Assembly: GCF_024509035.1 (NCBI RefSeq)
Contig: NZ_JANINT010000117.1
Location: 1 to 39,362, forward strand
DNA length: 39,362 nt
From: Nocardioides sp.
GTDB lineage: Bacteria > Actinomycetota > Actinomycetes > Propionibacteriales > Nocardioidaceae
Direction of reading: 5' to 3'
Positions 8,208-38,086 of the stretch are shown here, piece after piece. A program made the position numbers and the translations under genes. The notes under the pieces are model-generated. The model was not told the DNA's origin. It searched no databases and was given only the letters and a program-made list of their open reading frames with translations. Each line of letters opens with the position of its first letter. Within the stretch, counting starts at the first letter, position 1.

Positions 8208-8381
8208 CGGCTGAGTCGCGGGGACCTCGGAGGTCTGAGCACGGACACAACCTACATTGCGGACGGCGTTGGTCCGTGATTTCTCGGCCACGTCGCTGAC
8301 GTCGTCGGTCTCTGTCGGTCGTTGCTGCCCGGCCGTCACCCCCCGCTCGGTGGACACGTCACCGTGCGCGACCCTGCGGCT

Positions 8382-15713: not shown

Positions 15714-15735
15714 GCCTCGCGTAACGCGGCTCGCT

Positions 15736-15835: not shown

Positions 15836-16066
15836 AAAGGAAACTCGACTCGATACCTGACCTGAGGGGAGGCGGGCACTTGAACCTAGCGGCGCGCATG
15901 TCACCGATTCCTGCAGCTCGCGACGTGCCAGACAATCCACGCCGCTGCTGAGAGCCCATCTGGGCATCGCTGACCATCGAGCCACTGTGCTGGCCGGATC
16001 AAACGGATCGGGCATCTAGTTCTGCTGGTCAACGGCTTCCCGACGCTTCCATCCGAACTCCGGGGT

Positions 16067-16975: not shown

Positions 16976-19900
16976 GCCCGCTCGCGCCCTTGTCGATCTC
17001 GGTCGCATCGTGTCGATCGTCGCTTCGAGTCCTGCCGCTCGAAACTATCTTCGCCACCAAGGGTGCAAACTGCTCATCTTGATGGAGCGCAGAAGCGCGT
17101 CCGAGGTTGAATTGCTCGTAGAGACGCTCGGCATAGGCGACCGCTAGGCGCCGCACAGGCTCGGAGACGGAGAACCTCTCGGCGATGTCGGCCTGCATGG
17201 CCATGATCTCCATCAGGTGTCGCCGCCCGAGGCCGCTCGCAACGACGCTGTGTTGATGGCGGCGGTGGCCGTTCAGTGCGCGCGACACGAACACGAGGTC
17301 CCCGTGTTGCAGCACCTCCAGGTAGACCCGCCAGTCTCCAGCGGTGGGCAGTTCGCTCAGGTCCACCCGCTCCATCGCCAGTCGAAGGGTGGTGGCGTCG
17401 AACAGCACGGCACTCACGTTTGGGATCGTGTTGCGAATGGCGAGGCACTCCGTGATCTCGTCACGGCCCGAGGCGCGGTAGCGCCGGGTCCAGTCGCGCG
17501 CGTGGATGTCCGAGACGTAGTCACGGTAGTGGTGGGCGAGGACCGAACCGTCGGCGCCTAGTTGTCTCGACTCGCTGTAGACCAAGGCGGTCCCTGAGGA
17601 CCAGAACTCTGGTACGAGCGATGCGAGGAACGTGGGGTCTGCCACGTCGTCGGCCTCGGCGATCCACACTAGATCGCCGGTTGCCAGTTGCGACCCCAAA
17701 CGCCACTGGGCGAACACCGATCCGCTGTTCTCCTCGTTCACGACGACACGGACGTGCGGTGCTGCGTCCGAGATCGCCTCGTGGATGGCGGTCACACTCC
17801 CGTCGGTGGAGGCGTCGTCGAGCACGATCAGCTCGTAAACCGGGTAAGTCTGGTCGAGAACCTGTCGAAGTCGGTCGCCGATGAACCGCTCGTAGTTGTA
17901 GTTGGGCACGACAACGCTTACTCGAGGAAGGGCGGCGGGTGTTGCAGCGAGTAGGTCGAGCATGTAGCGCTGGAAGTTGAACTCGCTGGTGACAAGTGCC
18001 CGGCGGGCGTGCGCGTCGGCTGGCGAGTCCGACCTGACAGCATCGATGACCCCGGCGGCGAGACTCTCGCCCGACAAGGTCTCGACCAACCTTCCACCAG
18101 ATCGGACAATCAGGTCGTCCTGTCCTGTGCGATCGCGTCCTGCCACGATCGGAAGCCCGCACATCAGTGCCTCGAGAACCACGCTGGGGAAAGGGTCCTC
18201 CCGCGAACTGAGGACCAGCACGTCGGCGGCTTGATAGTAGGCCTCTGGGTCCGAGACGTAACCGACGAGGTGCAGCCTGTCCGAGCCGGCCGCTGCAACG
18301 GCATCGACGATGCGCCGATCGTAGGTGTCATGACGGCCTACCCACACGAAGTGGACGGCGCTGCCGTCCGCGGCGGTCGGGCGGTTGGCGGCCATCTCGG
18401 CGAAGAGATCCAGACCCTTGCGATGATCGCCGTACCCCACTCCGAGGGCCACCGTCGCGTCGAAAGGCAATCCCAACCGCTCGCGCAGCGCTTGGCGCTG
18501 AGCCGCGGATCGCTCCCCGCGGATCGGCTTGTAGATACCTTGAGGGCGGATGATCGCGTCGGTGTCCTGGGGCAGTGCATGGGGGTAGTCGCGCGCCACC
18601 TTGTCGGCAGGGAACACGATCCGATGTGCGCCGCTGGTCAAGGACTCCGCGCGCTGGCTCACCGCTGGGTCGGAGAGAACACTCGGCAACTCGTGCACAA
18701 GGCCGGTGACATCAGCCCCGGCTCGACGCAGTCGAGAAGCGAAGCCGCCGGAGACAGACGTGTTGCAGATGGCCGTGGTGAATCCGCGTTGGACCAGCCG
18801 ATCAGCAAGCATCTCGGCGGACGCGTCCTCGTCGCGCGCCAGAACATGTAGCGGCGCGGTCCTGGCGAACTCGGATGCGAGCTCGCCCTCGCCGAGCGCC
18901 ACCACTTCCACGTGCAGGCCGAAGCGGCCAAGGGTGCGGGTCATAGCGAGCGCCAGCAGTTGCGCACCGTGCGGGTGCATGTCGTGCGTGACGACGACTA
19001 CTCCTGCCCCATGGGCGCTCACCGGACCGTCGGCAAGCGTGATCTGCGCGTCACGGACGGCGTGGAGCCATTGGTAGCCCTGGGCCTCGTCCGGCTCCAG
19101 ATAGGCGCCTTCTGCCCACTCGTTCCATGCGTTGATGAAGACCAATCGCCAGGAGGGCTCGCAGCGGGCGATCGTCTCCGCGCCGGCGTTGACGAGCCAT
19201 TGGCAGAAACCATCCGGGTTGGCGCCCCACAAGATGGCAGCCGACTTCCCACGCCGCGCGGTGTTGTCCCACGAGGGACATACCCCGCGCCACACCGGGT
19301 AGGTCGGTTCTGGGTAGCTGTTGCTCCGGTTGGCCAGTTCTACCCAGTCGTAGACCTGTCCCTCGAAGCCTGGCGTCGCCTCGAGTTCGGGCACGTGGAG
19401 TGGGCCGGTGTTGTTGGGCGGGAACTCGACCGCGACGTCGAAACCGAAGTCTGCCGGGTCGGTCTTGTCGAAGGACTGCACGTACGCCAGCAGGATCTCC
19501 CCGACGCCGTTCTCCCGACACCAGGTGCGCCATCGAGTCGCCGTCGCGACGGGATCGGGCAGGAGAGATGGCCGATAGACCAGAAGCACGGGCTTTCCGT
19601 CTACGCGGAGGTAGCGGCGGTCGCGAAGGTAGCGGGACATCTCGGAGATGAAGGCGACGTCGTCCTCGGGGGAATGGCTCTGGCCGATCAGCACGTCCTG
19701 TGCTCGGCCATCCCATGTCCGGGTCCAGTTCTCGTTGGCCCAGCAGACGAGAAACTCGAGGTCCAAGGTGTCGTCGGCTAGAAAGGCCTCGAGGGGGCCG
19801 TCGAGCAGTCTCTTGCCAGCGAACCAGTAGGCATAGAAGCAGAAGGCTGAGACCCCATGCAGCACGGCCAGCTCGATCTGCCGACGCATGATCGCGGGAT

Positions 19901-20564
19901 CGCGCAGGTCGTAGTAGCCCAGCTCTCCCGGAACGTTCGGCTGCTGGTGTCCGCCGAAGGACGGCGTTCCGCGCACGACGTTCGTCCACTCGGTGAAGCC
20001 CTCGCCCCACCATTCATCGTTCTCCGGGATGGGGTGGAACTGCGGCAGGTAGAACGCGACCGTTCGTAACGCCGTTGCTCCGGGTGGTGACCCTGCCGGC
20101 GATCCCGAACGCTCAGCAAGAGTTGGCAGCGCCGGTCGAGGATCCGACGCTGGCACCGGCCGCGACTCGGACTCGCTCGGGCCTGCGGATGCCGCGGCTC
20201 CTGCGAGCTCGATCGTGAGCGGGGAGAAGTCCTCCAAGCCTGCAGGAGGCCGCGACACGAAGCTGTCCCGGGGCGCCCTGCCCTCACGCCACCCATACAG
20301 GGTGTAGTGCACGAGCGGGTTCATGCCGCTCTCGGCCACGTCTGGATTGGCGTCGAGGTAGTACTGCGTCGAGAAGCCCGGACCTGGGTCGCGTCCCTCG
20401 ACCCAGCCCTGAGTCAGGTAATGGATCAAGGGAGGGACACCCGCGTCTGCCACGTCGACGTAACGAGCGCGGTACCACTCCTCGTCGATCGCACCGCTCG
20501 CGGCAACCTCTGCGAGCTCCTCGGGGGTGATCGGGGGCTCCCAGGCTGCTGGTGACTGTCTCAC
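16962..20564 (-). CDS. Trimodular glycan enzyme: N-terminal ANPDV-type repeats, WbsX/GH99-like domain, GT4, GT2
   Basis: GTG at 20564 with GGAGGAAGC RBS; WbsX: TVAFYLPQFHPIPENDEWWGEGFTEWTNVVRG..., VCWANENWTRTWDG; GT4: LGVGYGDHRKGLDLF ... VLVLSSREDPFPSVVLEALMCGLPIVA; GT2: RVSVVVPNYNYERFIGDRLRQVLDQTYPVYELIVLDDASTDGS. Confidence 0.88.
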   Translation of the reverse strand: MRQSPAAWEPPITPEELAEVAASGAIDEEWYRARYVDVADAGVPPLIHYLTQGWVEGRDPGPGFSTQYYLDANPDVAESGMNPLVHYTLYGWREGRAPRDSFVSRPPAGLEDFSPLTIELAGAAASAGPSESESRPVPASDPRPALPTLAERSGSPAGSPPGATALRTVAFYLPQFHPIPENDEWWGEGFTEWTNVVRGTPSFGGHQQPNVPGELGYYDLRDPAIMRRQIELAVLHGVSAFCFYAYWFAGKRLLDGPLEAFLADDTLDLEFLVCWANENWTRTWDGRAQDVLIGQSHSPEDDVAFISEMSRYLRDRRYLRVDGKPVLLVYRPSLLPDPVATATRWRTWCRENGVGEILLAYVQSFDKTDPADFGFDVAVEFPPNNTGPLHVPELEATPGFEGQVYDWVELANRSNSYPEPTYPVWRGVCPSWDNTARRGKSAAILWGANPDGFCQWLVNAGAETIARCEPSWRLVFINAWNEWAEGAYLEPDEAQGYQWLHAVRDAQITLADGPVSAHGAGVVVVTHDMHPHGAQLLALAMTRTLGRFGLHVEVVALGEGELASEFARTAPLHVLARDEDASAEMLADRLVQRGFTTAICNTSVSGGFASRLRRAGADVTGLVHELPSVLSDPAVSQRAESLTSGAHRIVFPADKVARDYPHALPQDTDAIIRPQGIYKPIRGERSAAQRQALRERLGLPFDATVALGVGYGDHRKGLDLFAEMAANRPTAADGSAVHFVWVGRHDTYDRRIVDAVAAAGSDRLHLVGYVSDPEAYYQAADVLVLSSREDPFPSVVLEALMCGLPIVAGRDRTGQDDLIVRSGGRLVETLSGESLAAGVIDAVRSDSPADAHARRALVTSEFNFQRYMLDLLAATPAALPRVSVVVPNYNYERFIGDRLRQVLDQTYPVYELIVLDDASTDGSVTAIHEAISDAAPHVRVVVNEENSGSVFAQWRLGSQLATGDLVWIAEADDVADPTFLASLVPEFWSSGTALVYSESRQLGADGSVLAHHYRDYVSDIHARDWTRRYRASGRDEITECLAIRNTIPNVSAVLFDATTLRLAMERVDLSELPTAGDWRVYLEVLQHGDLVFVSRALNGHRRHQHSVVASGLGRRHLMEIMAMQADIAERFSVSEPVRRLAVAYAERLYEQFNLGRASALHQDEQFAPLVAKIVSSGRTRSDDRHDATEIDKGASGHGAP
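20259..20483 (-). repeat. Protein-level tandem repeat (two ~38-aa units)
   Basis: EEWYRARYVDVADAGVPPLIHYLTQGWVEGRDPGPGF / STQYYLDANPDVAESGMNPLVHYTLYGWREGRAPRDSF. Confidence 0.8.
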
Positions 20565-22075
20565 GCTTCCTCCTCCCGAGTCGAAGGCCCTCTCAACGGG
20601 CCAGCGAGCTTGCGCCCCCAGCGCCACGCCCTCGATGCTCGCACCGCGCGGCCAGCGGCTTCCTCGGCCCGCCGCTGGCCCTCCACGACGCTGAGGGCGC
20701 GAACCAGATGCTCGCGCTCGTGCCGTCGGACCAGTTCTCTCGCGTGCGCAGCGGCAAGGTCTCCTCGCAGCCGCTCTAGCAGCACCTGCGCCTCATGGCT
20801 CTCCTGAGCCATCGCCTCGATGCGCCGGGTTTGCTCGAGGCGTCGCACTCGGAGCTGCTCGACGTGCTCGTCCATCAGCCGCCGCTCTTCGGCAAGCCGG
20901 GTCAGGAGCGCCGAAGAGCGTACGATCTCGGCGTCCTGACGTGCTCGCACCGACTCGTGGTGTCTGACATGATCTCTGAATACGGCTAGCTCGATCGTCG
21001 CGGCTCGGAGTGCCTCGGCGTTGGCGTCGCGGGACTCCCTGAGTTTCTGCTCCGATCGGAGAATCTCCTCATTGAGGTCCCTGGCCTCCTGCAGCGCCAG
21101 CTCCAGTGCTGATCGAACCTCGGAACCCTGCTTCAACGCCGAGGCTGACTCCTCCAAGGCTTGCCGGAGCACGTCGACCTGAGACTGGAGCGCCGCAGAC
21201 TTGCGACGGCTCCTGACCAGCTCGATCGAACGCTCGCTCGCCCCCCCGGGGACATCGTCGAGATCGATCCGGTCCACCGACCCTGGCAATCGCTCGATCC
21301 AGTCCCAGAGAGCGCTCTGACTTGCAGACAGCGGCACCTCACAGGCGCCCTCTCGATTGCGGTAGAGCTCCGGGCGGATGGCTTGAAGCCGGTCCCGCGG
21401 AACGGTGGTGCCGAGTGCCTCGGCCAGGCTCTGAATAGCATCAGCTGGCTGATCGATAAGCGCTCTGTACCGAACGACGACCGCGCCCCGATCGCCCACT
21501 GCCACGAGGGACCGACGCACGTACTCTTCCCAGAGGGCAAGCCCAGTGACGAGAGGCAGGCTGTCTCGCTTGTGCAGCGAGGCAGCGACCTCAGCTGGGT
21601 GCCGAAATATCAGAACAAGCTTGGCGTCTGGCGGCAGATGTCGCTCCCAGACGGGCCAGAGCACGCAGAGCCGAGGATCCTTCACGGCAAAAGGTGCCGC
21701 TGCTGCGTCCTTGCTCAGTGTCGCAAGCAACGCCGCGACCTGCTCGCCGACTTCTGCCTCAAGGTCAAGCAGTTCGCAGACGTCCGGCGGCCCGTCCCAA
21801 GATGCACCGACCTGAGACAGGATTCGGTCGTTCAAGACCTGGACATCAGTGCGTTCGAAGAACCCGTCTGGGTTGTCCTCTCTCGGTCCGAGGAGTTCCT
21901 CCGGACGCCCTAGGTACCAGCCGAGATCACTGAGGAGCCGGGCCATAAGGCTCGTCCCCGAGCGGTGCATGCCGAGCACAATCAGCGGTCTGGTCGACGT
22001 ACTCTCTTCGCGCGCCATCGACTCAACGATGTGTCTCACCGGCGCCTCACTTCTTTCTTCCCGAGAATGGCTCAT
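20561..22075 (-). CDS. Sulfotransferase domain followed by long C-terminal coiled coil
   Basis: RPLIVLGMHRSGTSLMARLLSDLGWYLG (PAPS loop), AKLVLIFRHPAEVAASLHKRD; C-terminal heptad-rich segment from about residue 290 onward. Confidence 0.85.
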   Translation of the reverse strand: MSHSREERSEAPVRHIVESMAREESTSTRPLIVLGMHRSGTSLMARLLSDLGWYLGRPEELLGPREDNPDGFFERTDVQVLNDRILSQVGASWDGPPDVCELLDLEAEVGEQVAALLATLSKDAAAAPFAVKDPRLCVLWPVWERHLPPDAKLVLIFRHPAEVAASLHKRDSLPLVTGLALWEEYVRRSLVAVGDRGAVVVRYRALIDQPADAIQSLAEALGTTVPRDRLQAIRPELYRNREGACEVPLSASQSALWDWIERLPGSVDRIDLDDVPGGASERSIELVRSRRKSAALQSQVDVLRQALEESASALKQGSEVRSALELALQEARDLNEEILRSEQKLRESRDANAEALRAATIELAVFRDHVRHHESVRARQDAEIVRSSALLTRLAEERRLMDEHVEQLRVRRLEQTRRIEAMAQESHEAQVLLERLRGDLAAAHARELVRRHEREHLVRALSVVEGQRRAEEAAGRAVRASRAWRWGRKLAGPLRGPSTREEEA

Positions 22076-22082
22076 CACCCGG

Positions 22083-22832
22083 TCATCGCTCCGCCGCTGC
22101 GAAACTGCCCCGGTAGTCCGCCAACACGGAGTCGACCGATCCTTGAGATGACACGACGCCCGCGTCAAGCCACACCGCATCTGTGCACTGCTCCTGCAGC
22201 AAGGCGTCGCCGTGACTGGCAAGGACAAGTATCCCGGCCGAAGACATGAATTCGTTCAGTCGGCGGTTCGCCCGAGAGGTGAATTCGGCATCGGCGGTTC
22301 CGATGCCCTCGTCGAGAAGGAGCACATCAGGGCGCAGGGAAGTGAGGATCGAGAACCGCAATCTAGCTTGCATTCCGCTTGAGTATGAGTAGACAGGGTG
22401 CACGATTCGTTCGCCCAGCCCGGAGAACTGGGCGATGTCCTCGATCCGTCCGCGCATTGCCCGGGGAGACTCTCCCAACTGCACACCCATACTGACAATG
22501 TTGTCGCGCCCGCTTGCCTCCTGGTCAAGACCTGCAGCGGACCCGCCAAGCAGCGCGAGGACCCGGCCCTGCACCCGAACAGTTCCGCAAGTCGGGGGCA
22601 GCAGCCCAGCCATCACCGATAAGAGTGTGGACTTGCCGGACCCATTGGCCCCAACTAGGCCAACTCTTGAGCCCTCTGCAATGTTGAGATCTATAGACCG
22701 CAAGGCATCGATCACCACTGGATCATGAAATTTACGTCGTGCCGTCTGAACGAGACGATTCTTGAGGTTGTAGTCCCTGACTGAGAGCAACTGGTACTTG
22801 ACGTGGACATTGCGGAGGGCGACCGAAGGCAT
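22083..22832 (-). CDS. Polysaccharide ABC transporter ATP-binding protein (Wzt/TagH type, no C-terminal carbohydrate-binding extension)
   Basis: GLVGANGSGKSTLLSVMAGLLPPTCGTVRVQGRVLALL, YSSGMQARLRFSI, VLLLDEGIGTADAEF; 249 aa. Confidence 0.92.
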   Translation of the reverse strand: MPSVALRNVHVKYQLLSVRDYNLKNRLVQTARRKFHDPVVIDALRSIDLNIAEGSRVGLVGANGSGKSTLLSVMAGLLPPTCGTVRVQGRVLALLGGSAAGLDQEASGRDNIVSMGVQLGESPRAMRGRIEDIAQFSGLGERIVHPVYSYSSGMQARLRFSILTSLRPDVLLLDEGIGTADAEFTSRANRRLNEFMSSAGILVLASHGDALLQEQCTDAVWLDAGVVSSQGSVDSVLADYRGSFAAAER

Positions 22833-23722
22833 CAGGACACCCAGTATGGCAAGCGCGACCGAGCCCGGCTAAATACCCAGGCCGCGAGCACCAGATTGAT
22901 TGCAGTGACGCCAACTACTCCAGTCCACGTTGTCGCGGATGGAAACTCTCCCAGCAAAGGGTCGCGGAAGAGATTCAGCAAGTGCGCAAACGGATTCCAT
23001 GTGACCAAGACGCCACGTCCGCTGGCATCGACGTCGTCCGCGCGCCAGAAGACCGGCGTGAAGAACATCAGCATCTGCATGATCGATACGACCAAGGGCC
23101 CCACATCACGGTACCTCGCGACCGTAGGGCCCAGCCAGAGCCCAATCGCCACGCCGTTCAGCACGATTACGGCGATAGCGGGGACGACGAGGAGGAGCTT
23201 GAGGCTGAGCGGCACCAACCCGAGGGCAACGAGTGCGGCAACGATCACCAAGTTGTGCCCGAACTGCAGTAGCTCATGGGTAGCTGACTGAAACACCAGC
23301 GCGGAGAGCGGCTGGCGGGTGCTTATCAATGTCGAGGCATTGCTCACGAACACGCTGGCGCCTTGACCTGTAAGGCCGGTCAGCAACCAGAAACCGATGA
23401 AGCCACCGGCGATGTAGGGCAGAAAGTCGCTCAGGGACTGTCCGAAGATTGAGCCGAAGAGAACAGCGAGGCCAGAAACCATGGCTGCTGTCTGGAGAGT
23501 GAGCCACCACGGTCCGATGACCGTGCGCCGGTACTGATTCTTCACCTGCTCGATAGCGAGATAGGTCCACGACTGCCACCGACGAATCCCCTCCGCGACG
23601 TCACCGGCGGCCGCGCTGATCTGAGCGCCGATCGAAGCGTCGATGGGTGCGTAACCCTGCCAAGACAAGCCGGCTGGATCGTTCGCCCTCCGGGCGCCGG
23701 CGCGCGGGTGCCGAGGACTCAC
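22832..23722 (-). CDS. Polysaccharide ABC transporter permease (Wzm/TagG type)
   Basis: YLAIEQVKNQYRRTVIGPWWLTLQTAAMVSGLAVLFGSIFGQ..., MQMLMFFTPVFWRAD, NPFAHLLNLFRDPLLGE; GTG start 23722 overlapping upstream stop (GTGA). Confidence 0.9.
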   Translation of the reverse strand: MSPRHPRAGARRANDPAGLSWQGYAPIDASIGAQISAAAGDVAEGIRRWQSWTYLAIEQVKNQYRRTVIGPWWLTLQTAAMVSGLAVLFGSIFGQSLSDFLPYIAGGFIGFWLLTGLTGQGASVFVSNASTLISTRQPLSALVFQSATHELLQFGHNLVIVAALVALGLVPLSLKLLLVVPAIAVIVLNGVAIGLWLGPTVARYRDVGPLVVSIMQMLMFFTPVFWRADDVDASGRGVLVTWNPFAHLLNLFRDPLLGEFPSATTWTGVVGVTAINLVLAAWVFSRARSRLPYWVS

Positions 23723-24933
23723 GAGCTGCTCTCCTCGATGAATGGCGCGGTGGGCGCTGTGGGGTGGGACGGCGTCGAGTTTATAGAACGGACGGCGAAG
23801 GCGAGTCGTCGGCCGGCAGGGAGGCCTGTGATGGCACTGCGGGCGACGTCGTCGGCTGCCGACCACGTCGTCGAAACGTCCGGGGATTGAGCGGCCGCCG
23901 GTGCGTAGACCGCGCTGACCGTCGAGGACGCAATCCGTCGCAGAGGTTGGCGGAGCGCGCGCGGCAACATGGCCACTCCGAGGCCCGAGGCCGCGGTGTC
24001 GACGGGCAGGGAGCGAGGGAGGGCGAAGCCGGCGGCGCGCAGTCGACGCGTCGACCACACCCACGCGCCGGCGATCTGCTCCGCGTCCGTGCCGCGACGA
24101 AGACGACGCCGCAGCCGCCGCCAGGCCAGGGCGACCCAGGCGACGCGCACGGCCACGGCCGCCAGGGCGGAGAGCACGACCGCCAGCACGGCGAGCCAGA
24201 TCGCCCTGAGAGGGGCGCCCGGCTCGCTCGGCGGCGTGTCGACCTGGACGGTCTCGTCCGACGGCTCGGGAAGTGGCGTCCGACGCTGGGCTGAGTCGCC
24301 GAGCACAGGGGGCGGTTGGATCGACCGGTCCACGGCCCCCGGGGCCAGGACGGCAGGTTCGCCCTGCAGGCGACGGTCGGCCTGCAGCGCGATCGCGGCC
24401 GCGAGGCCACCGATCAGCAATGCCAAGGCGACCGTCGCGATCAGGTGGGGCGCGCGGCCGGTCCACCGCCGGCTTTGGCCCTCGACAACAGCTACCGCGA
24501 TCGTCGTGACCAGGGCGGTGGCGACGGCGACCGCGGCGACTTCGGCGCCCGCCCCGAGGCCGAGTGCGCCGACGAGGACACCGACGACCGCGGCGGCGAA
24601 CAGCGCGGGTGCTGGACCCCGTACGGCCGCTACGGCAAGGGCGGTGAAGGCTGCCGCGGCGAAGGTGGACCGTGCTGCGGGGCCGTGCCCGGTCCCCGAA
24701 GCGACGTTCACGACCTCGGCAATCGCCAGCGCGGCGGCAAGGCCACCGGCCGCCGCAAAGCGAACTGACAACCGGGCGATCGCCGCCGTCACCACGACCA
24801 CGCCGACGACGCCCGGGAGGACGAAGGCGAGCAGCGCGAACAGCGACACCGACCCCGAGTAGGCGAGGGACGCCACCGCACAGCACACGCCCGCCGCAGC
24901 GGTCCGTGCGTCCACTGCCGGTGCCGCGCTCAC
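23719..24933 (-). CDS. Multi-TM protein with C-terminal DUF4129-like domain, transglutaminase core not seen
   Basis: N-terminal consecutive TM helices, single TM before [38 protein letters not shown] (DUF4129-like); GTGA overlaps at both ends. Confidence 0.65.
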   Translation of the reverse strand: MSAAPAVDARTAAAGVCCAVASLAYSGSVSLFALLAFVLPGVVGVVVVTAAIARLSVRFAAAGGLAAALAIAEVVNVASGTGHGPAARSTFAAAAFTALAVAAVRGPAPALFAAAVVGVLVGALGLGAGAEVAAVAVATALVTTIAVAVVEGQSRRWTGRAPHLIATVALALLIGGLAAAIALQADRRLQGEPAVLAPGAVDRSIQPPPVLGDSAQRRTPLPEPSDETVQVDTPPSEPGAPLRAIWLAVLAVVLSALAAVAVRVAWVALAWRRLRRRLRRGTDAEQIAGAWVWSTRRLRAAGFALPRSLPVDTAASGLGVAMLPRALRQPLRRIASSTVSAVYAPAAAQSPDVSTTWSAADDVARSAITGLPAGRRLAFAVRSINSTPSHPTAPTAPFIEESSS

Positions 24934-26069
24934 AGGTCCTCCAGGCCAGTGGCGTCCGGCACGTCCACCACTCGCACCCCTGCCAAGCTGCTGCCTGCAG
25001 CGTCGGCGCCGACCCGGACGACCGTGAGCGGGGCGATGGTGGCGAGCCGGCGCAGCGAGCCCGCCGTGCGCGGGTCGGGTGCCGAGGTGATGACGATCGT
25101 GTGAGCGGCCCGGGTCCGCGCGACGACGGCAGGCAGCTCGTCCGCCGCGGTGTCGACGGGTGGCAGCAGCTGGACGGTCGCGAGAGCGTCGAGCAGGCTG
25201 CTCGCAGCCCCCGCGGAGGCACTCGTCACGCGTGCTCCTCGGGCGGTGGTGACGAGGTGCACCTGCTCGGCCCGGGTGAGCTGGCTGGTCGCGAGTGACG
25301 CGGCGACCTCGACCGCCGACTCGAAGCGCTCCGTGTCCCAGCTGGAGCTGAATCGGCCGCTCGTCGCGTAGGCCGAGCCGTCGACGTCGAGCACGATCGT
25401 GGTGCCCGTGGAGGCCTCGGAGACCTGCTGCCGCACGACGAGCTTCCCCGCCCGAGCCGACGAGCGCCAGTGCACCGACCGCGGCTCGTCGCCGAGCACG
25501 TAGTCGCGCAAGGCGTGGAAGTGCTGGTCCCCGGATCGACGGCTCGCGGAGTCGGACTCCCCCTCGCGGAAGGCCGTCGTCAGGGACCGACGCACCCGCA
25601 CCGACCTCGGCCGCACCGTCAGCACGCCGCCGTCGGCCGACGCGACGACCCGACGGACGACGCCCCACGGGTCACCGTGCACGAGCGAGTAAGGCCCGAG
25701 CGGCCGCTGACCGCGCTCGCTCGTGTCGACCGGCATTCGCAGCGAGGCAGCGCCCGACCGAGCCGAGCGCGGCAACCGCACCGACCGCAGCGGCGCCCGC
25801 ACCGGGCCGTCGACGATGCGCAGCCAGCGGCGCGGGCCACGGATCTCGACGATGAGACGGACGTCGGCGGGCTGACCTCGGACGACCTGCACCGACGACT
25901 GGTCTGGGCGGATGCTCCCGCGCGGAGTGCGGAGCGTGGCGAGGAGCGCGAGCACCACGAGCCCCCCGGCGCCGGCGCCGAGCGCCATCAGCTCGGGCCA
26001 GCTCGCCCGCCATCCCCACAGTGAGAGACCCGCGGCGGCCAGCACCAGCCCGGCGCCGCGCACGGTCAT
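24930..26069 (-). CDS. DUF58 family protein (MoxR-associated, vWA-like)
   Basis: GPYSLVHGDPWGVVRR ... FHALRDYVLGDEPRSVHWRSSARAGKLVVRQQVSEASTGTTIVLDVDGSAY. Confidence 0.92.
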   Translation of the reverse strand: MTVRGAGLVLAAAGLSLWGWRASWPELMALGAGAGGLVVLALLATLRTPRGSIRPDQSSVQVVRGQPADVRLIVEIRGPRRWLRIVDGPVRAPLRSVRLPRSARSGAASLRMPVDTSERGQRPLGPYSLVHGDPWGVVRRVVASADGGVLTVRPRSVRVRRSLTTAFREGESDSASRRSGDQHFHALRDYVLGDEPRSVHWRSSARAGKLVVRQQVSEASTGTTIVLDVDGSAYATSGRFSSSWDTERFESAVEVAASLATSQLTRAEQVHLVTTARGARVTSASAGAASSLLDALATVQLLPPVDTAADELPAVVARTRAAHTIVITSAPDPRTAGSLRRLATIAPLTVVRVGADAAGSSLAGVRVVDVPDATGLEDL

Positions 26070-27082
26070 CGCTGTCCGTCCCCCGGAGGGGGCGCGATCG
26101 CCTGCACCGCTTCGTCGGCGGCGTCGGCGGCGGAGCCGCCGGACGCCTCGAACGACGGGCTCACCAGCATCCGGTGGGCGAGCACGGGCTGGGCAAGGGC
26201 TTGCACGTCGCTCGGGACGACGAAGTGGCGGCCGTCCAGCGCGGCCCGCACCCGCGCGGTGCGCAGCAGCCCGATCGCGCCGCGTGGGGAGGAGCCGAGC
26301 CGCAGTTGCGGCATCGTGCGGGTGTGGCCGACCAGCGCGGCGACGTAGTCGAACACGGCGGGCGCGACGTGCACTGCGCGTGCCGCCGCGACCAGGGAGG
26401 CGATCTCGTCGGGCGAGCTCACCTGGGGGACGTTCCCCACGCCGGTGCCGGCGTGCTCGGCCTGCAGCACGCGGACCTCGGCGGCGTGGTCGGGGTAGCC
26501 GACCGTGGTCTTGACCAGGAAGCGGTCGAGCTGTGCCTCGGGGAGCGGGTAGGTGCCGTCCATCTCGACCGGGTTCTGCGTGGCCATCACCAGGAAGGGC
26601 CGCGGCACCGGATAGGGGCGTCCGTCGACCGTGACCTGCCGCTCCTCCATGACCTCGAGGAGGGCGGACTGGGTGCGCGGCGCGGCGCGGTTGATCTCGT
26701 CCGCCAGCACGATGTTGGAGAAGATCGGGCCGGGGTGGAAGTTGAAGCTGCTGGTGTCCTGGTGGAACACCGACACGCCGGTCACGTCGCCCGGCAGCAG
26801 GTCGGGGGTGAACTGGATCCGCTGCCAGGGCGCTCCGAGGGCCGAGGCGAAGCTGCGCGCCAGCGAGGTCTTGCCGACCCCGGGGACGTCTTCGAGCAGC
26901 AGGTGGCCCTCGGCGAGCAGGCACGTCATGGCCAGCCGCACGACCTCGGCCTTGCCCTGCATGAATCCGTTGACCGCCTCGGCGATCCGGTGGGCCGCCG
27001 CCTGGAAGGTCGCGGCCTCCTCGGAGGTGAGCGGGCCAGGGCCCCGGTCCTGCAGCACGTCCACGGTTCCCCCAGAAGTCAC
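26066..27082 (-). CDS. MoxR family AAA+ ATPase
   Basis: GHLLLEDVPGVGKTSLARSFASALGAPWQRIQFTPDLLPGDVTGVSVFHQDTSSFNFHPGPIFSNIVLADEINRAAPRTQSALLEVMEE. Confidence 0.96.
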   Translation of the reverse strand: MTSGGTVDVLQDRGPGPLTSEEAATFQAAAHRIAEAVNGFMQGKAEVVRLAMTCLLAEGHLLLEDVPGVGKTSLARSFASALGAPWQRIQFTPDLLPGDVTGVSVFHQDTSSFNFHPGPIFSNIVLADEINRAAPRTQSALLEVMEERQVTVDGRPYPVPRPFLVMATQNPVEMDGTYPLPEAQLDRFLVKTTVGYPDHAAEVRVLQAEHAGTGVGNVPQVSSPDEIASLVAAARAVHVAPAVFDYVAALVGHTRTMPQLRLGSSPRGAIGLLRTARVRAALDGRHFVVPSDVQALAQPVLAHRMLVSPSFEASGGSAADAADEAVQAIAPPPGDGQR

Positions 27083-27174
27083 GTCTCGGCATGCTACCGG
27101 CCCGGACCGAGGGAGGCCCGATCGGCGGCGCGCTTAGGATGAGGCGGCCACGATCAGTCAGGGAGACCCTCGGA

Positions 27175-29388
27175 GTGAACCCGCACGACCCGGAAGACCT
27201 CTTGGAGGCGCTCCGTACGGAGAACGACGAGCTGCGGATGCGGATCTCCGTGCTCGAGGCCACCGCCGAGGAGTACCGACGGCAGATGTCCGCCGTGCTG
27301 ACGTCGGCGTCGTGGCGATGGTCGGCGCCGTTGCGTGGCTCCGCGGGCAAGGTGCGGCTGCTCAGAGCCCGGGCCCGAACGCTCGTGAAGCGGCTCGTCC
27401 GGCGCGACATCCCGCCTGCGACGACATCGACCGCAGGACTGTTCGCTCCGGTCGCCCGCAAGGGCGCGTCCGGCACCCCCCACCCGTCACCGCTGCTCAA
27501 TCGGCCGCTCGTGCACGGGGTCCGGTCGTCGCGGCTGGAGCTCGATCCTTTGCCGACCCACGATCAGGCGCGGGTCCTCGTGGTTGCGCACGTCTTCTAC
27601 CCCGAGGTGTGGCCGGACATCGAGGATCGCCTCTCGCGGATGCCGGAGGCCTTCGACCTCATTGTCACGCTGGTGCAGGGCCCCGCCGAGAGCCTCGAGG
27701 GACGCATCGGTGGGCGCTTCCCGCGCGCCCGGATCCACCACGTCGAGAACGTCGGCCGCGACACCTGGCCCTTCGTCGAGCTCGCCCGACGCGGAGCCTT
27801 CGAGGGTTACGACGCCGTGCTCAAGGTGCACACCAAGCGCTCGGTGCACCGCATCGACGGCGACGCCTGGCGCCTCGACCTGCTGGACGGGCTGTTACCT
27901 TCCCCCGAAGGGGTTCGGCGGATCGTCGACCTGCTGCGCCGGGACCGTAACGTCGGCGTCGTCGTTCCCTCCGGGCATCTCAAGGGGCCGGAGACCTGGG
28001 GCTCCAACCAGGAGCTCGTCGAGGCTCTCACCGCTCGGATGCCGTTCGCCTTCGATCCCGACGCCCTGCGCTACCCGGCGGGCTCGATGTACTGGGCACA
28101 ACCGTGGCTGCTCCAGCGGCTGGCGGACCTCGAGCTGGACAGGGAGCACTTCGAGTCCGAGGCGGGTCACCTCGACGGCTCGACGGCGCATGCCATCGAG
28201 CGGTTCGTCGGGGTGATGGCCACCGCGGCCGGCCTGGACCAGGTGGAGACCGGCGAGGTGCCGTCCCGACTCCACCAGGCGCGCCGAGCCGACGCGGACG
28301 GCAACGCGCCGCGCGTGCTGGCCTTCTACCTCCCGCAGTACCACCGGATCCCGGAGAACGACGAGTGGTGGGGCGAGGGGTTCACCGACTGGGTCAACGT
28401 CGACCGCGCGCGGCCGCTCTACCGCGGGCACGCGCAGCCGGTCGAGCCCGGCGAGCTGGGGCGCTACGACCTCTCCGACGTCAAGGTGATGCAACAGCAG
28501 GCCGACCTCGCCGCCGAGCACGGGGTCGACGGGTTCGTCATGTACCACTACTGGTTCGACGGGCAGCCCCTGCTCGAGACTCCCTTGCGCAACCTGCTCG
28601 CCGATCCGTCCGTCGAGTTCCCCTTCGCGCTCTGCTGGGCCAACGAGTCCTGGACGCGGCGGTGGGACGGGCTCGACAAGGACGTCCTCATCGCCCAGAC
28701 CTACCCGCCGGGCTGGGAGGACGCGTTCTACGACGACCTGCTCCCGGCGCTGCGCGACCACCGCTACCTGCAGGTCGAGGGGAAGCCCTTGCTCGTGATC
28801 TACCGCATCGGTCAGCTGCCCGACGCCGCGGCGACGATCGCGCGGTGGCGTGAGCGCGCCGAGGCCGACGGCCTCGGCGGGCTCCACATCCTCGCGGTCA
28901 TCCCCTCACGCGACTTCGAGGGCATGTCGGCCTCGGCAGCGGCAGCGGTCGACGGCCTCGTCCACTTCCCGCCCGGCTCGGGGATCGGGCTGCAGTCGCT
29001 CCGCGACCTCGCGCCCGACCTCGACCCCACCCACTCGGGGGACATCTACTCCTACGACGCCGCCGTCGACGGGGCCGACCTGCGCACCACCGGTCCGCAC
29101 GGCCTGCGCGTCCATCCCGGAGTCATGCCGGGTTGGGACAACACGGCTCGGCGCGGCGCGGCGGCGTACGCGTTCCACCGTGGCAACCCGGTGTCATTCC
29201 GTCGCTGGCTCTCTCGTGCCGTCGACGCGGCGACGGCCGCCGGCGGTGAGCCGCTCGTCTTTGTCAACGCGTGGAACGAGTGGGCCGAAGGCGCCTGCCT
29301 CGAGCCGGACGCCCGTTTCGGACGGGGCAACCTCGAGACCGTGCGTCAGGTCACGGGCGCCCGTCCCGGGCAGCCCCGATCGCGCTGA
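27175..29388 (+). CDS. Coiled coil + RgpF-like (rhamnan synthesis F) domain + WbsX/GH99-like domain
   Basis: RVLVVAHVFYPEVWPDIEDRLSRMPEAFDLIVTL... VGRDTWPFVELARRG..YDAVLKVHTKRS (RgpF); VLAFYLPQYHRIPENDEWWGEGFTDWVNVDRARPLYRGH (WbsX). GTG 27175 chosen; in-frame ATG at 27139 also possible. Confidence 0.88.
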   Translation: MNPHDPEDLLEALRTENDELRMRISVLEATAEEYRRQMSAVLTSASWRWSAPLRGSAGKVRLLRARARTLVKRLVRRDIPPATTSTAGLFAPVARKGASGTPHPSPLLNRPLVHGVRSSRLELDPLPTHDQARVLVVAHVFYPEVWPDIEDRLSRMPEAFDLIVTLVQGPAESLEGRIGGRFPRARIHHVENVGRDTWPFVELARRGAFEGYDAVLKVHTKRSVHRIDGDAWRLDLLDGLLPSPEGVRRIVDLLRRDRNVGVVVPSGHLKGPETWGSNQELVEALTARMPFAFDPDALRYPAGSMYWAQPWLLQRLADLELDREHFESEAGHLDGSTAHAIERFVGVMATAAGLDQVETGEVPSRLHQARRADADGNAPRVLAFYLPQYHRIPENDEWWGEGFTDWVNVDRARPLYRGHAQPVEPGELGRYDLSDVKVMQQQADLAAEHGVDGFVMYHYWFDGQPLLETPLRNLLADPSVEFPFALCWANESWTRRWDGLDKDVLIAQTYPPGWEDAFYDDLLPALRDHRYLQVEGKPLLVIYRIGQLPDAAATIARWRERAEADGLGGLHILAVIPSRDFEGMSASAAAAVDGLVHFPPGSGIGLQSLRDLAPDLDPTHSGDIYSYDAAVDGADLRTTGPHGLRVHPGVMPGWDNTARRGAAAYAFHRGNPVSFRRWLSRAVDAATAAGGEPLVFVNAWNEWAEGACLEPDARFGRGNLETVRQVTGARPGQPRSR

Positions 29389-29526: not shown

Positions 29527-30801
29527 ATGTCATTGCCAGCTCACCGATCCGGCTTGCGTGCCGTTCTCCTCGGTCTGATCCCGCTCCTGATGGTCGGCGC
29601 CTCGCTCGTGTCGGCGCCTGCGCAGGCCCAGCGCGTCTCTCCGGACTTCTTCGGGATGCATGACGCCAACATCGCCGGCGGTTCGGTGCCCGGTGTGGCG
29701 GTCGGCTCCGTCCGGCTCTGGGACACCGGGACGGCGTGGAGCCAGATCGAGAAGAAGCGGGGACGCTTCGACTTCACAGCGCTCGACACCGCCGTCAACA
29801 CCGCTCGCAACGCCGGCCTCCGGCCGCTGGTCGTCCTCGGCCAGACGCCGCGGTTCTACGCCTCCAAGCCGAAGGCCGCGGGGTGGTACGGCAAGGGCGC
29901 CTCCAGCATGCCGAAGACGATCTCCGCCTGGACGAAGTACGTCACCAAGGTGGCCAAGCGCTACAAGACCTCGGTCGACTACCAGATCTGGAACGAGCCG
30001 AACGTCGTCGGCTTCTGGAGCGGCAGCGTGAGCCAGATGGCGAAGCTGACGGCGACGGGCAGCGCGGCCATCAACAAGGCCGCCGGGCGCCGGGCCACCG
30101 TCGTCGCCCCCTCCTTCCCGCTGCGGCTCGCGAGCCAGAAGACGTGGTTCAAGAAATACTGGGCCGCGAAGGTCGGCCGCAAGAGCATCGCCGCCATGGT
30201 CGACGTGGTGGCGGTGAACCCCTACCCGCTGGCCGACCAGGCGCCTGAGGCCTCGGCCAGCCTGCTGTCGTTCGCCAAGCGGGTCCTGCCGAAGCAGGCG
30301 CGCCGCAAGCCGATGTGGAACACCGAGATCAACTACGGGCTCCTGGGCGGCGACACCGCCAAGTCCATCCCCGACGCCACTCAGGCGGCGTACGTCGCGC
30401 GCACGCTGCTGCTCAACGCCGGAGCCTCGGTCGACAGGGTGTACTGGTACAGCTGGCGGATCAACGGCATCGCCAACACCCACCTCGTCGAGGACGACGG
30501 CACCACCCTCACTCGGGCCGGACGCGCCTGGCAGGTCGCGCGGGGCTGGATCGTCGACACCGACGTCTCCTGCGCCGTCACCTCGAAGGGGGCGCTGAAG
30601 GGCCTCTACACCTGCACCGCGCGCGTCGGCACCAACGACGTCCGGCGGATCTACTGGAAGCCCAGCGGCGGAGCGGTCCGGGTCGCGACGTCGTCGACGA
30701 CGACCTCGTCCACCGACCTCGATGGCACCACCACGGCGCACGACGGGCAGGTCACTCTCACGGTCCACGACGCGCCGGTGATGGTCTCCTCGCGGAGCTG
30801 A
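29527..30801 (+). CDS. Secreted GH-A-clan glycoside hydrolase-like protein, paralog 1
   Basis: Signal peptide (LRAVLLGLIPLLMVGASLVSAPAQAQ), VDYQIWNEPNVV and MWNTEINYGL as candidate acid/base and nucleophile strands. Confidence 0.8.
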   Translation: MSLPAHRSGLRAVLLGLIPLLMVGASLVSAPAQAQRVSPDFFGMHDANIAGGSVPGVAVGSVRLWDTGTAWSQIEKKRGRFDFTALDTAVNTARNAGLRPLVVLGQTPRFYASKPKAAGWYGKGASSMPKTISAWTKYVTKVAKRYKTSVDYQIWNEPNVVGFWSGSVSQMAKLTATGSAAINKAAGRRATVVAPSFPLRLASQKTWFKKYWAAKVGRKSIAAMVDVVAVNPYPLADQAPEASASLLSFAKRVLPKQARRKPMWNTEINYGLLGGDTAKSIPDATQAAYVARTLLLNAGASVDRVYWYSWRINGIANTHLVEDDGTTLTRAGRAWQVARGWIVDTDVSCAVTSKGALKGLYTCTARVGTNDVRRIYWKPSGGAVRVATSSTTTSSTDLDGTTTAHDGQVTLTVHDAPVMVSSRS

Positions 30802-30850
30802 CGTCTCGGCTGAGCTGGCCGGCCCACCACATCCCATCGGGGGGATCCGC

Positions 30851-32125
30851 ATGATCGCTTCGCTCGTCCGCTCGTCCGTTCGTCTGGTGGCGGTCCCGAT
30901 CCTGGCACTGGGGCTCGTCGTGTCGGTGCTGGCGCTCGCTGCGCCCGCTGATGCGAAGCGGGTCCGTCCAGGCTTCTTCGGCATGCATGACACCCGGATC
31001 AGCGGCGGCACCCTGACGACGCTGCCGATCGGCGCCGTGCGGGTCTGGGACTCCGGAACGTCGTGGCGCGAGATCGAGAAACGCCGCGGTCACTACGATC
31101 TGGGCCGACTGCGCACGGCCGTCCGCACGGCGAGGTCAGCCGGCGTGCGCCCGCTGATCGTGCTGGGCCAGACGCCCCGGTTCCACGCGAGACATCCCCA
31201 CGCCCCGGGCGCCTACGGTCGCGGAGCGACCAGCATGCCGCGCCTGACTCCGTGGAAGCGCTACGTGGCGAAGCTGGCGAGAACCTTCGGGACCACGGTC
31301 GACTACCAGATCTGGAACGAGCCCAATGTCGTCAACTACTGGACGGGGTCGGTCTCGCAGATGGCGCTGCTCACCGCCACCGCCGGGAGGACGATCGAAC
31401 GGGTCGCCGGTCGGAGGGCCGTCGTGGTGGCGCCTGCGTTCCCACTGCGGTTGTCCTCGCAGCGGGCGTGGTACCGCGCCTACTGGCACGCCTCGGTCCG
31501 CGGTCGCGGGATCGCCCGCTTCGTCGACGTGGTCTCGGCCAATCTCTACCCCCTGGAGCATCAGGCGCCGGAGGCGTCGATGAACCTGGCCAGGTTCGCT
31601 CGGCGAGCCCTGCCGAAGGCGGCTCGCCAGAAACCCTTGTGGAACACCGAGATCAACTACGGGCTGCGGGGAGGACCCGCCGCCAAGGAGATCTCGCCAC
31701 GGAAGCAGGCGGCGTACGTCGCCCGCACCTTGGTCCTGAACGCTGCGAGCCCGGTGAGCCGGGTCTACTGGTACGCCTGGGGTCTCGGCTCGATCGCGAA
31801 CACCCACCTCGTCACGCCGGACGGCAGCGAGCTGACCCGGGCCGGACGCGCCTGGGTCGTCACCGCGACATGGCTCAGCGGAGCCGAGGTGCGGGGCTGC
31901 TCGCACACGGGGCGAGGTCGCCTCCGGGGCGTCTACGTGTGCACGTTCCGCGACGGGGCCGAGGGCCGGCGGATCTACTGGAAGCCTCGCGGCCGTCCGG
32001 TCGGCGTCAGGACGCCGAGCACGACGCGCTCGTGGTCCAGTCTCTCGGGCACCACCACCGAACGTTCAGGGCACTTCCGGATCCGGGTCGGCCAGGCGCC
32101 CGTATTGGTGACCTTCCGCCGCTGA
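30851..32125 (+). CDS. Secreted GH-A-clan glycoside hydrolase-like protein, paralog 2
   Basis: Signal peptide; FFGMHDTRISGG, VRVWDSGTSWREIE, VDYQIWNEPNVVNYWTGS, LWNTEINYGLRGG. Confidence 0.8.
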   Translation: MIASLVRSSVRLVAVPILALGLVVSVLALAAPADAKRVRPGFFGMHDTRISGGTLTTLPIGAVRVWDSGTSWREIEKRRGHYDLGRLRTAVRTARSAGVRPLIVLGQTPRFHARHPHAPGAYGRGATSMPRLTPWKRYVAKLARTFGTTVDYQIWNEPNVVNYWTGSVSQMALLTATAGRTIERVAGRRAVVVAPAFPLRLSSQRAWYRAYWHASVRGRGIARFVDVVSANLYPLEHQAPEASMNLARFARRALPKAARQKPLWNTEINYGLRGGPAAKEISPRKQAAYVARTLVLNAASPVSRVYWYAWGLGSIANTHLVTPDGSELTRAGRAWVVTATWLSGAEVRGCSHTGRGRLRGVYVCTFRDGAEGRRIYWKPRGRPVGVRTPSTTRSWSSLSGTTTERSGHFRIRVGQAPVLVTFRR

Positions 32126-32181
32126 GCCGGACAACCCGGGCCCCCACCTCACGCCGCTGCTGAAGTCGTTGGGAGAACGCC

Positions 32182-33522
32182 GTGGTCAGACCCCGCCGAA
32201 CCCTGGTCTCGCTCGCCTGTGCCGTCCTCGTCGCGCTCGGCGCCGGCTGCAGCACGAGTGATCCCTCCCCTCAGGGGGGTGGCATCACCCCCAGCGCCGA
32301 GGCGACCACGCTCACGCCCTCCGTGAGCCCCACGGATCCCGTGCAGCCACCGCCGCCACGGGGCCAGCGGATCCGGAGCACGTTCTTCGGCATGCACGAC
32401 GGTCTCGTGAGCCAGGGGCGCGCGCCGGACGCCCCGATCGGCGCCCTGCGCCTCTGGGACTCCGGGACGAGCTGGCGCGACCTCGAGACCAGACCGGGTG
32501 GGTTCACGTGGACGACGCTGGACACGGCCGTCGCCACGGTCGAGCGGATGCGCGCCCGGCCGCTTCTGGTGCTCGGCCAGACCCCGACCTTCCACGCCTC
32601 GAAGCCCCGGGAGGAGGCGCCGTACGGCGCCGGCGCGGCCTCGATGCCCGATCTCGGCGCCTGGCGTCGCTATGTCACCGCCGTGGCGCAGCGCTACGGG
32701 GACCGGATCGACTACCAGATCTGGAACGAGGCGAACGTCGTCCAGTACTGGACCGGCACGCCCCGGCAGATGGCGCAGCTGACCCTGACGGCGTCGAAGG
32801 CGATCCGCAAGGTCGTCCCGAAGGCGACGATCGTGGCTCCGGCGTTCCCGTTGCGGCTCGAGAGCCAGCAGGCCTGGTTCGCGGACTTCTGGTCGCTGCA
32901 GTCGACCCGCGTCGACCTGGCCGGCGCCGTCGACGCCGCGTCCGTGCAGCTCTATCCGTCCGCGGAGGGCCTCCCGGAGGACCAGGCGACGCTGCTCGAC
33001 ATCGCCCGAGAGGTGCTGGCCGAGAACGGGATCGACCTCCCGGTGTGGAACACCGAGATCAACTTCGGGCTCCAGGGCGGGCCCGAGCCGCCGGCGATCC
33101 CCGCCGAGCTCCAGCGAGCGTTCCTGATGCGCACCTACCTGCTCGACGCCGGTCTCGGTCTGCCGCGGGTCTATTGGTACAGCTGGAACATCGGACGGAT
33201 CGCCAACACCTACCTGACCGAGGAGGACCTCACCACCGAGACCCTGGCCGGGAAGTCGTTCGACGTCGTCCGCGACTGGCTCGAGGGCACCCGCGTTGAG
33301 GGCTGCACCCTCGGGGACCGGGAGCCCGGCGTCTGGGAGTGCGTGGCGCGCGGCGAGGGCGAGGTCCGGACGTTCTGGTGGAAGCCCCGGGGCCCCGCCG
33401 TGCGGGTGACCTCCCCGGACGCGACGTCGTGGAGCGATGCCGGCGGAGCGGTCACGCGCTGCCGGGAGTCGTGCCGGGTCCCGGTCGGGGCAACACCGGT
33501 GATGGTCGTTCGCCCCGGCTGA
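32182..33522 (+). CDS. GH-A-clan glycoside hydrolase-like lipoprotein, paralog 3
   Basis: Lipobox LGAGC; FFGMHDGLVSQG, LRLWDSGTSWRDLE, IDYQIWNEANVVQYWTG, VWNTEINFGLQGG. Confidence 0.8.
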   Translation: MVRPRRTLVSLACAVLVALGAGCSTSDPSPQGGGITPSAEATTLTPSVSPTDPVQPPPPRGQRIRSTFFGMHDGLVSQGRAPDAPIGALRLWDSGTSWRDLETRPGGFTWTTLDTAVATVERMRARPLLVLGQTPTFHASKPREEAPYGAGAASMPDLGAWRRYVTAVAQRYGDRIDYQIWNEANVVQYWTGTPRQMAQLTLTASKAIRKVVPKATIVAPAFPLRLESQQAWFADFWSLQSTRVDLAGAVDAASVQLYPSAEGLPEDQATLLDIAREVLAENGIDLPVWNTEINFGLQGGPEPPAIPAELQRAFLMRTYLLDAGLGLPRVYWYSWNIGRIANTYLTEEDLTTETLAGKSFDVVRDWLEGTRVEGCTLGDREPGVWECVARGEGEVRTFWWKPRGPAVRVTSPDATSWSDAGGAVTRCRESCRVPVGATPVMVVRPG

Positions 33523-33528: not shown

Positions 33529-34943
33529 TCAGCTCGCCGGCTCGCTCTGGCAGTAGCGGACGAGTGCCGCGCGAGCGTCCTCCGAGACGAATCCGGTGCG
33601 CGCCAGCTTGTCCAGGCTCAGGACGCTGCGCGCCGGTCGCGGGGCCAGGGCCTTGCCGGCTGCGTACTCCTCGGTGCTGACCGGCGTCACGTCGCCGGGA
33701 TCACGGCCCGTCAACGCGAAGACCTCGCGGGCCAGGTCCGCCCACGACGTCGGGGGGCCGTCGTTGGTGACGTTGTAGGTGCCGTACGCCGCGCCGCTCT
33801 CCACCAGGTGCCGGGTGGCGCGGGACAGCTCGCCGGTGAACGTCAGCCGTCCCACCTGGTCGTCCACGACCGACGGCGAGATCCCGCGCTCCGCGAGCGA
33901 CTGCATCGTCCGGACGAAGTTGCGGCCCTCGCCGATGACCCAGGAGGTCCGGAGCAGGTAGTGACGGGGCGCGGTGCTGACGGCGAGGTCGCCCGCTGCC
34001 TTCGACTGGCCGTAAACCCCGAGCGGCGAGAACGGCTCGTCCTCGACATGGGTGTCCTCGGTCCCGTCGAACACGTAGTCGGTGGAGTAGTGCACCAGGG
34101 TGAACCCGTGCTCCTGGGCGAGCCGCGCGAGCACGGCCGGTGCCTGGGCGTTGGCGGCCCAGCACGCGGGGCGGCCCGCGGTGGTCTCCGCGTCGTCGAC
34201 GGCGGTGTAGGCGGCGGCGTTGAGGACGAGGTCGTACTCGTGCCACGGCCACGCCCCGACCGCCGTCGGGTCGGTGAGGTCGAGGACGGGATCGGTGCCG
34301 ACGAGATCGACGCGGTCGGCCTCGGGGAAGTCGAGCGCGAGCGCCCGGCCGAGCTGGCCGTTCGAGCCGATGATCAGGGTGCGACGCGGCTCCATCGGGA
34401 CCACGTCGGCCAGCAGCGGATTGCGCTGGTCCTTCTCGGAGATGTCGGCGTCGTCGAGGGCGATCGGCCACGGGACCGCGACAGCGGGATCCCCGAGGTG
34501 GACCGCGGGATAGGAGACGCCCGCTCGCCAGTGGTCGTTGACCAGGTAGCTGTAGCTGGTGCCGTCCTCGAGCGCCTGGTAGGAGTTGCCGACCCCCCGG
34601 GGCACGAACACCGTCACGGACGGGTCCACCTCGATGTGGAAGGTGGTCCCGAACGAGTCCCCACGGCGCAGGTCGACCCACGCCGCGAAGACACGGCCCG
34701 TGGTCACCGAGACGAGCTTGTCCCACGGCTCGGCGTGGATGCCGCGGGTGGCGCCACGGCGGGCGTTGTAGGAGACGTTGTTCTGGACCGGGCCGAAGTC
34801 GGGCAGCCCGAGGGCCACCATCTTCTCCCGTTGCCAGTTCTCCTTGAACCAACCCCGATCGTCCTCGTGCACGGGCAGCCGCAGGACCAGCAGGCCCGGG
34901 ATCGGTGTCGTCTCGACGCTCAGTTCCTTCACCGCGGGCTCCA

Positions 34944-34944
<1 letters not shown>
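33529..34944 (-). CDS. Bifunctional dTDP-4-dehydrorhamnose 3,5-epimerase / dTDP-4-dehydrorhamnose reductase (RmlC-RmlD fusion)
   Basis: RmlC cupin (DDRGWFKENWQ..., RGIHAEPWDK) followed by RmlD SDR (RTLIIGSNGQLGRALALDFP, LVHYSTDYVFDGTED, PLGVYGQSKAAGDLAV). Confidence 0.9.
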
Positions 34945-37111
<2,167 letters not shown>

Positions 37112-37222
37112 GCTTCCTTTCGGGTGTGGTGGGACGTCGGTTCATCCTAGGCGTGGCAGTTTGGCCATCCCTCAACCTGGGAGCCGACCGCAGTGGTCAT
37201 CTCCCTCCGTACGATGGCTCCC

Positions 37223-38086
37223 ATGCGCGGCATCATCCTGGCAGGCGGCACGGGTTCGCGGCTCCACCCGATCACGCACGCCGTGAGCAAGCAGCTCATG
37301 CCGGTCTACGACAAGCCGATGATCTACTACCCGCTCTCGACGCTGATGCTGGCAGGGATCCGTGAGGTGCTGGTCATCACCACGCCCCACGAGGCCGAGC
37401 AGTTCCGTCGCCTGCTGGGCGACGGCAGCCAGTTCGGCATCGAGATCACCTGGGCGGTGCAGGCCAGCCCGGACGGGCTCGCGCAGGCCTTCCTCATCGG
37501 CGCCGACCACGTCGCCGGTGGACCGTCGGCCCTGGTGCTGGGCGACAACCTCTTCTACGGCGCGGGTCTCGGCAACCAGTTGCACCGGTTCCAATCTCTG
37601 ACGGGGGCAGCCGTCTTCGGCTACCGCGTCGCGGACCCGACGGCGTACGGCGTCGTCGAGTTCGACGCCGACGGCCGCGCGCTGTCGTTGGAGGAGAAGC
37701 CCGAGAAGCCCAGGAGCAGCTACGCCGTCCCCGGTCTGTACTTCTACGACGAGACCGTCGTCGAGCGCGCTGCCTCGCTGAAGCCCTCCGCGCGCGGCGA
37801 GCTCGAGATCACCGACCTCAACCGGCTCTACCTCGAGGCGGGGGAGCTGCACGTCGAGGTGCTGCCCCGCGGTTCGGCATGGCTCGACACCGGCACGTTC
37901 GACGAGCTGAACGAGGCCAGCAACTACGTCCGGGCGATCGAACGCCGCCAGGGGACCAAGATCGGTGCCCCCGAGGAGGCCGCCTGGCGGATGGGCTTCA
38001 TCAGCGACGAGGAGCTGGCGGCACTGGCGGCGCCGCTGCTGAAGAGCGGCTACGGCCGCTACCTCCTGGACCTCCTCGACGAGTGA
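37223..38086 (+). CDS. rmlA: Glucose-1-phosphate thymidylyltransferase
   Basis: [55 protein letters not shown]; start could also be 37214 or 37193. Confidence 0.95.

Follow-up and report, generated by a model that had tools for sequence, protein, structure and literature searches.

The window analyzed here, i.e., the entire stretch of 39,362 nucleotides of DNA from a soil bacterium, Nocardioides sp. (contig NZ_JANINT010000117.1), encodes three adjacent GH39-like proteins, termed copies A, B, and C, which we consider, with somewhat better than even confidence, to be exported PslG-like retaining glycosidases, probably of the endo type, that act on the rhamnose-containing surface polysaccharide of their own locus, with copy C being anchored and copies A and B being free. 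The fold, catalytic residues, anchoring pattern, gene context, and purifying selection described below were computed here, and the corresponding features are listed in Table 1.

TABLE 1 Features of the PslG-like array and its neighborhood, in window coordinates
Feature	Position	Strand	Remarks
RgpF-like and WbsX-like fusion	27091..29388	+	Adjoins the array in L004 and L005 too
Copy A, GH39/PslG-like, ordinary signal peptide	29527..30801	+	424 residues
Copy A, predicted catalytic Glu	Glu157 (acid/base), 29995-29997; Glu267 (nucleophile), 30325-30327	+
Copy B, paralog, ordinary signal peptide	30851..32125	+	424 residues
Copy B, predicted catalytic Glu	Glu157, 31319-31321; Glu267, 31649-31651	+
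Copy C, paralog, predicted lipoprotein	32182..33522	+	446 residues
Copy C, predicted lipoprotein signal MVRPRRTLVSLACAVLVALGAGC	32182..32250	+	Ends at lipobox Cys23; PROSITE-like lipobox pattern
Copy C, Pro/Ser/Thr-rich linker from Cys to catalytic core	32251..32364	+	~39 residues; read from sequence
Copy C, predicted catalytic Glu	Glu183, 32728-32730; Glu292, 33055-33057	+
RmlC-RmlD fusion, dTDP-rhamnose synthesis	33529..35022	-
RmlB-like dehydratase	34944..35942	-	Named by sequence and context
GT4 glycosyltransferase	35954..37111	-
RmlA-like nucleotidyltransferase	37193..38086	+	Read from translation; ortholog adjacent in L004 and L005

Organization of the three-gene array

The first-pass annotation of this DNA had described three adjacent paralogs with common motifs, and the open reading frames of A, B, and C were found at the given positions, each with FFGMHD, WD(T/S)GT(A/S)W, VLGQTP, YQIWNE(P/A)NVV, VAPxFPLRLxSQ, and WNTEIN(Y/F)GL. 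Copies B and C share 57% and 45% identity, respectively, with copy A, which is far above chance, and the three represent the sole copies in their own genome (E ≤ 0.001). The proposed starts (ATG at 29527, ATG at 30851, and GTG at 32182) are supported by the Shine-Dalgarno-like sequences that precede them (GGAGG, GGGGG, and GGGAG, respectively), while GC3 values of 0.88 to 0.93 fit those of real genes. These start signals, coupled with intergenic gaps of approximately 50 to 60 bases within the array, make it likely that A, B, and C are cotranscribed, perhaps together with the RgpF-WbsX gene located 138 bases 5′ of copy A. A scan for promoters and terminators returned nothing exceeding chance.

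Fold and predicted catalytic residues

The assignment of the paralogs to clan GH-A, also made previously, can be narrowed to the GH39 kind and is well supported, as Pfam GH39, PDB sequence searches, and Foldseek comparisons of AlphaFold2 models are in agreement. Copies A (39.2 bits) and C (27.1 bits) pass the Pfam GH39 cutoff of 26 bits, and copy B clearly belongs to the same family despite a score of 15.4 bits, which on its own falls below this cutoff. PDB sequence searches returned PslG as the top relative, followed by GH39 beta-xylosidases. The AlphaFold2 models of copy A (pLDDT, 71.8) and copy C (pLDDT, 75.7; pTM, 0.79), for which nine sequences from the window and from relatives were used, were likewise matched first to PslG by Foldseek (E = 2.6e-15 and TM 0.69 on query for copy A; E = 1e-17 and TM 0.74 on query for copy C). 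The anticipated (beta/alpha)8 barrel was recovered, in that strands and helices alternate in the models and all Foldseek matches are GH-A-type barrels; the first, N-terminal strand is poorly modeled, and loops near the active site are of low confidence. A match of copy C to the NCBIfam alpha-1,4-L-rhamnosidase model (E = 4e-4) was far below the cutoff and too weak to assign an activity.

The glutamates of the WNE and NTEIN motifs, which had been put forward as acid/base and nucleophile, align with E165 and E276 of PslG, to which these respective functions are assigned (PMC11912335), and are predicted to sit after presumed strands 4 and 7 of the barrel. In the copy C model, the glutamates at core positions 122 and 231 come after strands 116 to 119 and 227 to 229, the numbering of which as strands 4 and 7 assumes an unmodeled first strand. 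Both glutamates are invariant across 34 sequences, and so are an Asn located two positions past each glutamate, several Trp residues, and two Cys residues of the C-terminal module, the latter suggesting a disulfide in the exported protein. GH39 is a retaining family (PMC11912335), and the conserved Glu pair suggests a retaining mechanism for A, B, and C.

The Asn directly preceding the acid/base Glu is kept in A, B, and C and is replaced in 13 of the 34 sequences, by Pro in 10 and by Ala in 3. Members with WPE include L035, L038, L039, L042, L043, L067, and L068:18052-19185, and those with WAE are L037, L045, and L068:1721-2887; these substitutions may mean that the enzymes of the sublineages concerned meet a different sugar, or a substituted one, where they cleave.

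Export signals and membrane anchoring

The earlier description of all three proteins as secreted holds in its simple form for copies A and B, which carry ordinary signal peptides whose cleavage regions are rich in Ala (the signal peptide of copy A at about 29527 to 29628), and requires amendment for copy C, a predicted lipoprotein. In a pattern scan, the copy C signal displayed the expected n-region with Arg/Lys, a hydrophobic stretch, and the lipobox Cys. The lipoprotein pattern matched all four C-type proteins (those of the window, L004, L005, and G071), whereas the six A/B-type proteins scanned all lacked it; signal and lipobox assignments were made with patterns rather than with a trained predictor. 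Copy C is probably membrane anchored, and copies A and B are apparently free. The term "periplasmic," as formerly applied to these proteins, is a loose one for an actinobacterium.

Locus context

The location of the array inside a glycan locus was confirmed, as the window harbors rml genes, glycosyltransferases of the GT4, GT2, and GT61 kinds, three sulfotransferases, methyltransferases, an ABC exporter, and a Wzz/kinase-like gene (read from translation). The array had also been placed beside export genes, a description which calls for correction: the ABC export genes are located at about 22 to 23.7 kb, and the immediate neighbors of the array are the RgpF-WbsX fusion and rmlCD/rmlB. The gene order from RgpF-WbsX to rmlA is conserved in L004 and L005, with one inserted gene in L004. 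A strict link with RgpF-WbsX was rejected as a rule, since G071 has A-C yet lacks a gene closely matching the fusion. Based on the rml genes, the polymer specified by the locus is predicted to contain rhamnose, and the sulfotransferases suggest that it is possibly sulfated.

Several further features of the window were apparent. The stretch from 7404 to 24000, with a G+C content of about 0.59 to 0.69 (versus 0.70 to 0.75 around it), holds the three sulfotransferases, several methyltransferases and glycosyltransferases, and the ABC exporter, and is possibly an acquired glycan cassette. A 1221-residue frame (16962 to 20627, minus strand) joins a WbsX-like domain to GT4 and GT2 glycosyltransferase domains. 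The ABC exporter and RgpF-WbsX are separated by a MoxR-like ATPase gene and a DUF58 gene (24930 to 27082, minus strand), an arrangement that L004 and L005 share. As read from the sequence, an exported-looking protein with the zinc-protease-like motif HEIGHAVGLMH (2293 to 3768, plus strand) adjoins the Wzz/kinase-like gene.

Distribution, ancestry, and selection

Relatives at this depth were detected in 17 of the 220 Nocardioides genomes, 14 of which carry at least two copies, and one unclassified Actinomycetota metagenome-assembled genome (L006) also has a full-length relative. The possibility that these represent generic GH39 enzymes, widespread in Actinomycetota, was rejected, as matches outside Nocardioides were nearly all confined to the barrel, and full-length members were seen solely in Nocardioides and the above-mentioned unclassified genome. 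Phylogenetically, each of the three copies clusters with its own positional counterparts in other Nocardioides, the gene order being A-B-C in L005 and A-C in L004 and G071, and copy B most likely arose later, by duplication of A. Pairwise dN/dS values between orthologs range from 0.20 to 0.48, and each copy is, therefore, under purifying selection. The A-B-C array is thus an old, conserved arrangement; a recent amplification or an assembly artifact was rejected, since the copies are 42 to 54% apart in protein sequence, with dS of 0.64 to 0.75, and each has orthologs elsewhere. A viral origin of the array was also discarded, as no relatives were present among viral contigs.

A second clade, with WPE instead of WNE, also pairs free and anchored copies, approximately 5 to 16 kb apart, in G082, G206, and G068; the anchor is a lipobox in the first two and, in G068, what by visual inspection appears to be a transmembrane segment that is not cleaved. 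Anchored copies from one clade do not cluster in the tree with those from the other, and at least four changes of anchoring state are needed. Anchoring was likely gained separately in the two clades, with loss of an ancestral anchor as a possible alternative. The pairing is not universal, as G077, G253, and G337 each encode two copies, both of them free.

Several other family members are located in glycan loci (L035, L037, L039, L042, L044, and L045). In L044:10365-13597 (G120), a GH16 enzyme gene is located directly upstream of the family member, with a flippase-like gene nearby. One clade (L040:7107-10482, L041:7332-10472, L046:6162-9571, and L047:8093-9547; genomes G024 and G050), which includes a 1047-residue frame with two fused enzyme domains, adjoins purine/nucleoside genes rather than glycan genes, and not every family member need, therefore, serve a glycan locus.

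Comparison with known systems

Hydrolases encoded within exopolysaccharide loci are common, and the kind of enzyme described here is already known; the conserved PslG-like set with its recurring free-plus-anchored arrangement is real. The closest counterpart is PslG of the Pseudomonas aeruginosa Psl locus (PDB 4zn2, 5bx9, and 9g17), which represents the top sequence and fold match, possesses the same catalytic Glu pair, aligns across the C-terminal beta domain of the A/B/C type too, and is likewise exported and encoded in an exopolysaccharide locus; it differs in sharing only about 20% identity, in being encoded by one gene rather than three, and in its polymer. We know of no description of a lipoprotein paralog of PslG. 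As PslG is a GH39 endo-beta-glucosidase (PMC11912335), its specificity cannot be transferred to A, B, and C.

The GH39 beta-xylosidases (e.g., 2bs9, 1w91, and 4ekj) share the same barrel and the motifs around the acid/base, but they yield weaker matches, mostly to the barrel only, and have no tie to loci for polysaccharide synthesis. Ulvan degradation involves a GH39 endo-rhamnosidase that acts within a sulfated, rhamnose-rich polymer (PMC8360166); this enzyme, however, is catabolic. The PelA hydrolase of Pel loci, which generates the secreted Pel of low molecular weight (PMC9894940), offers an analogy of role only, i.e., that of a locus-encoded hydrolase acting on the product of its locus, which in this case is alpha-1,4-GalNAc. 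Searching the literature for Nocardioides together with GH39 yielded nothing relevant, and no description of the free-plus-anchored arrangement was found in open-access papers.

Proposed function and alternatives

Because the array is located between RgpF-WbsX and rmlCD/rmlB, its likeliest substrate is the rhamnose-containing, possibly sulfated, polysaccharide of the locus, and action of A, B, and C on this glycan is plausible by context. The activity, endo mode, substrate, and division of labor of the three copies are all inferred. Copies A and B would be released beyond the membrane, while copy C would be held on the external face of the membrane by its lipid anchor and flexible linker. The anchored/free split suggests, as a working hypothesis, that C acts at the export site, where the chain emerges, and may there set its length or release it, with A and B trimming or releasing the polymer farther out.

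In P. aeruginosa, PslG activity and an inner-membrane pool of the enzyme promoted Psl production, and more periplasmic PslG lowered Psl (PMC6813494); another group did not find PslG required, as the same study notes. By analogy, and more tentatively than the proposal above, the synthesis-supporting (membrane) and polymer-releasing (soluble) roles of the single PslG could in this genus be divided between anchored and free paralogs, a split that would have arisen more than once, with length and release being set by two enzymes at different distances from the membrane.

The same double-displacement chemistry could also serve retaining transglycosylases, which would pass the polysaccharide to a wall glycan or other chain, the anchored copy being the ligase at the membrane. 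Such transfer is chemically possible since GH39 is a retaining family (PMC11912335), and a membrane-anchored copy with a linker would be well placed for it; however, the sequence holds nothing that separates transfer from hydrolysis, and the closest characterized relative, PslG, is a hydrolase, and we judge this reading unlikely. We attach a similarly low probability to a scavenging or defensive role, in which the enzymes would cleave foreign polysaccharides and be present in the glycan locus by chance or linkage. While many GH39 enzymes degrade environmental glycans and some family members are found outside glycan loci, the window shows no gene for sugar import, sugar catabolism, or regulation next to the array, the biosynthetic genes surrounding the array are syntenic in three genomes, and further glycan loci contain members of other clades. 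That the proteins have lost catalysis and serve as glycan-binding or scaffold proteins is highly improbable, for although the Pro and Ala replacements before the acid/base indicate an active site that is not canonical family-wide, the window copies retain Asn-Glu, both Glu residues are invariant, and the orthologs are under purifying selection.

Significance

Glycosidase action on the locus's own polysaccharide, the reading favored here, bears on a wider issue, as it is disputed even for PslG whether the hydrolases of exopolysaccharide loci help to build the polymer or only degrade it (PMC6813494). With the free and anchored forms being different genes, these two roles would be separable by single-gene deletions. 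The array widens the range of PslG-like enzymes to include a Gram-positive genus, and A, B, and C represent candidate enzymes for a probably rhamnose-rich glycan.
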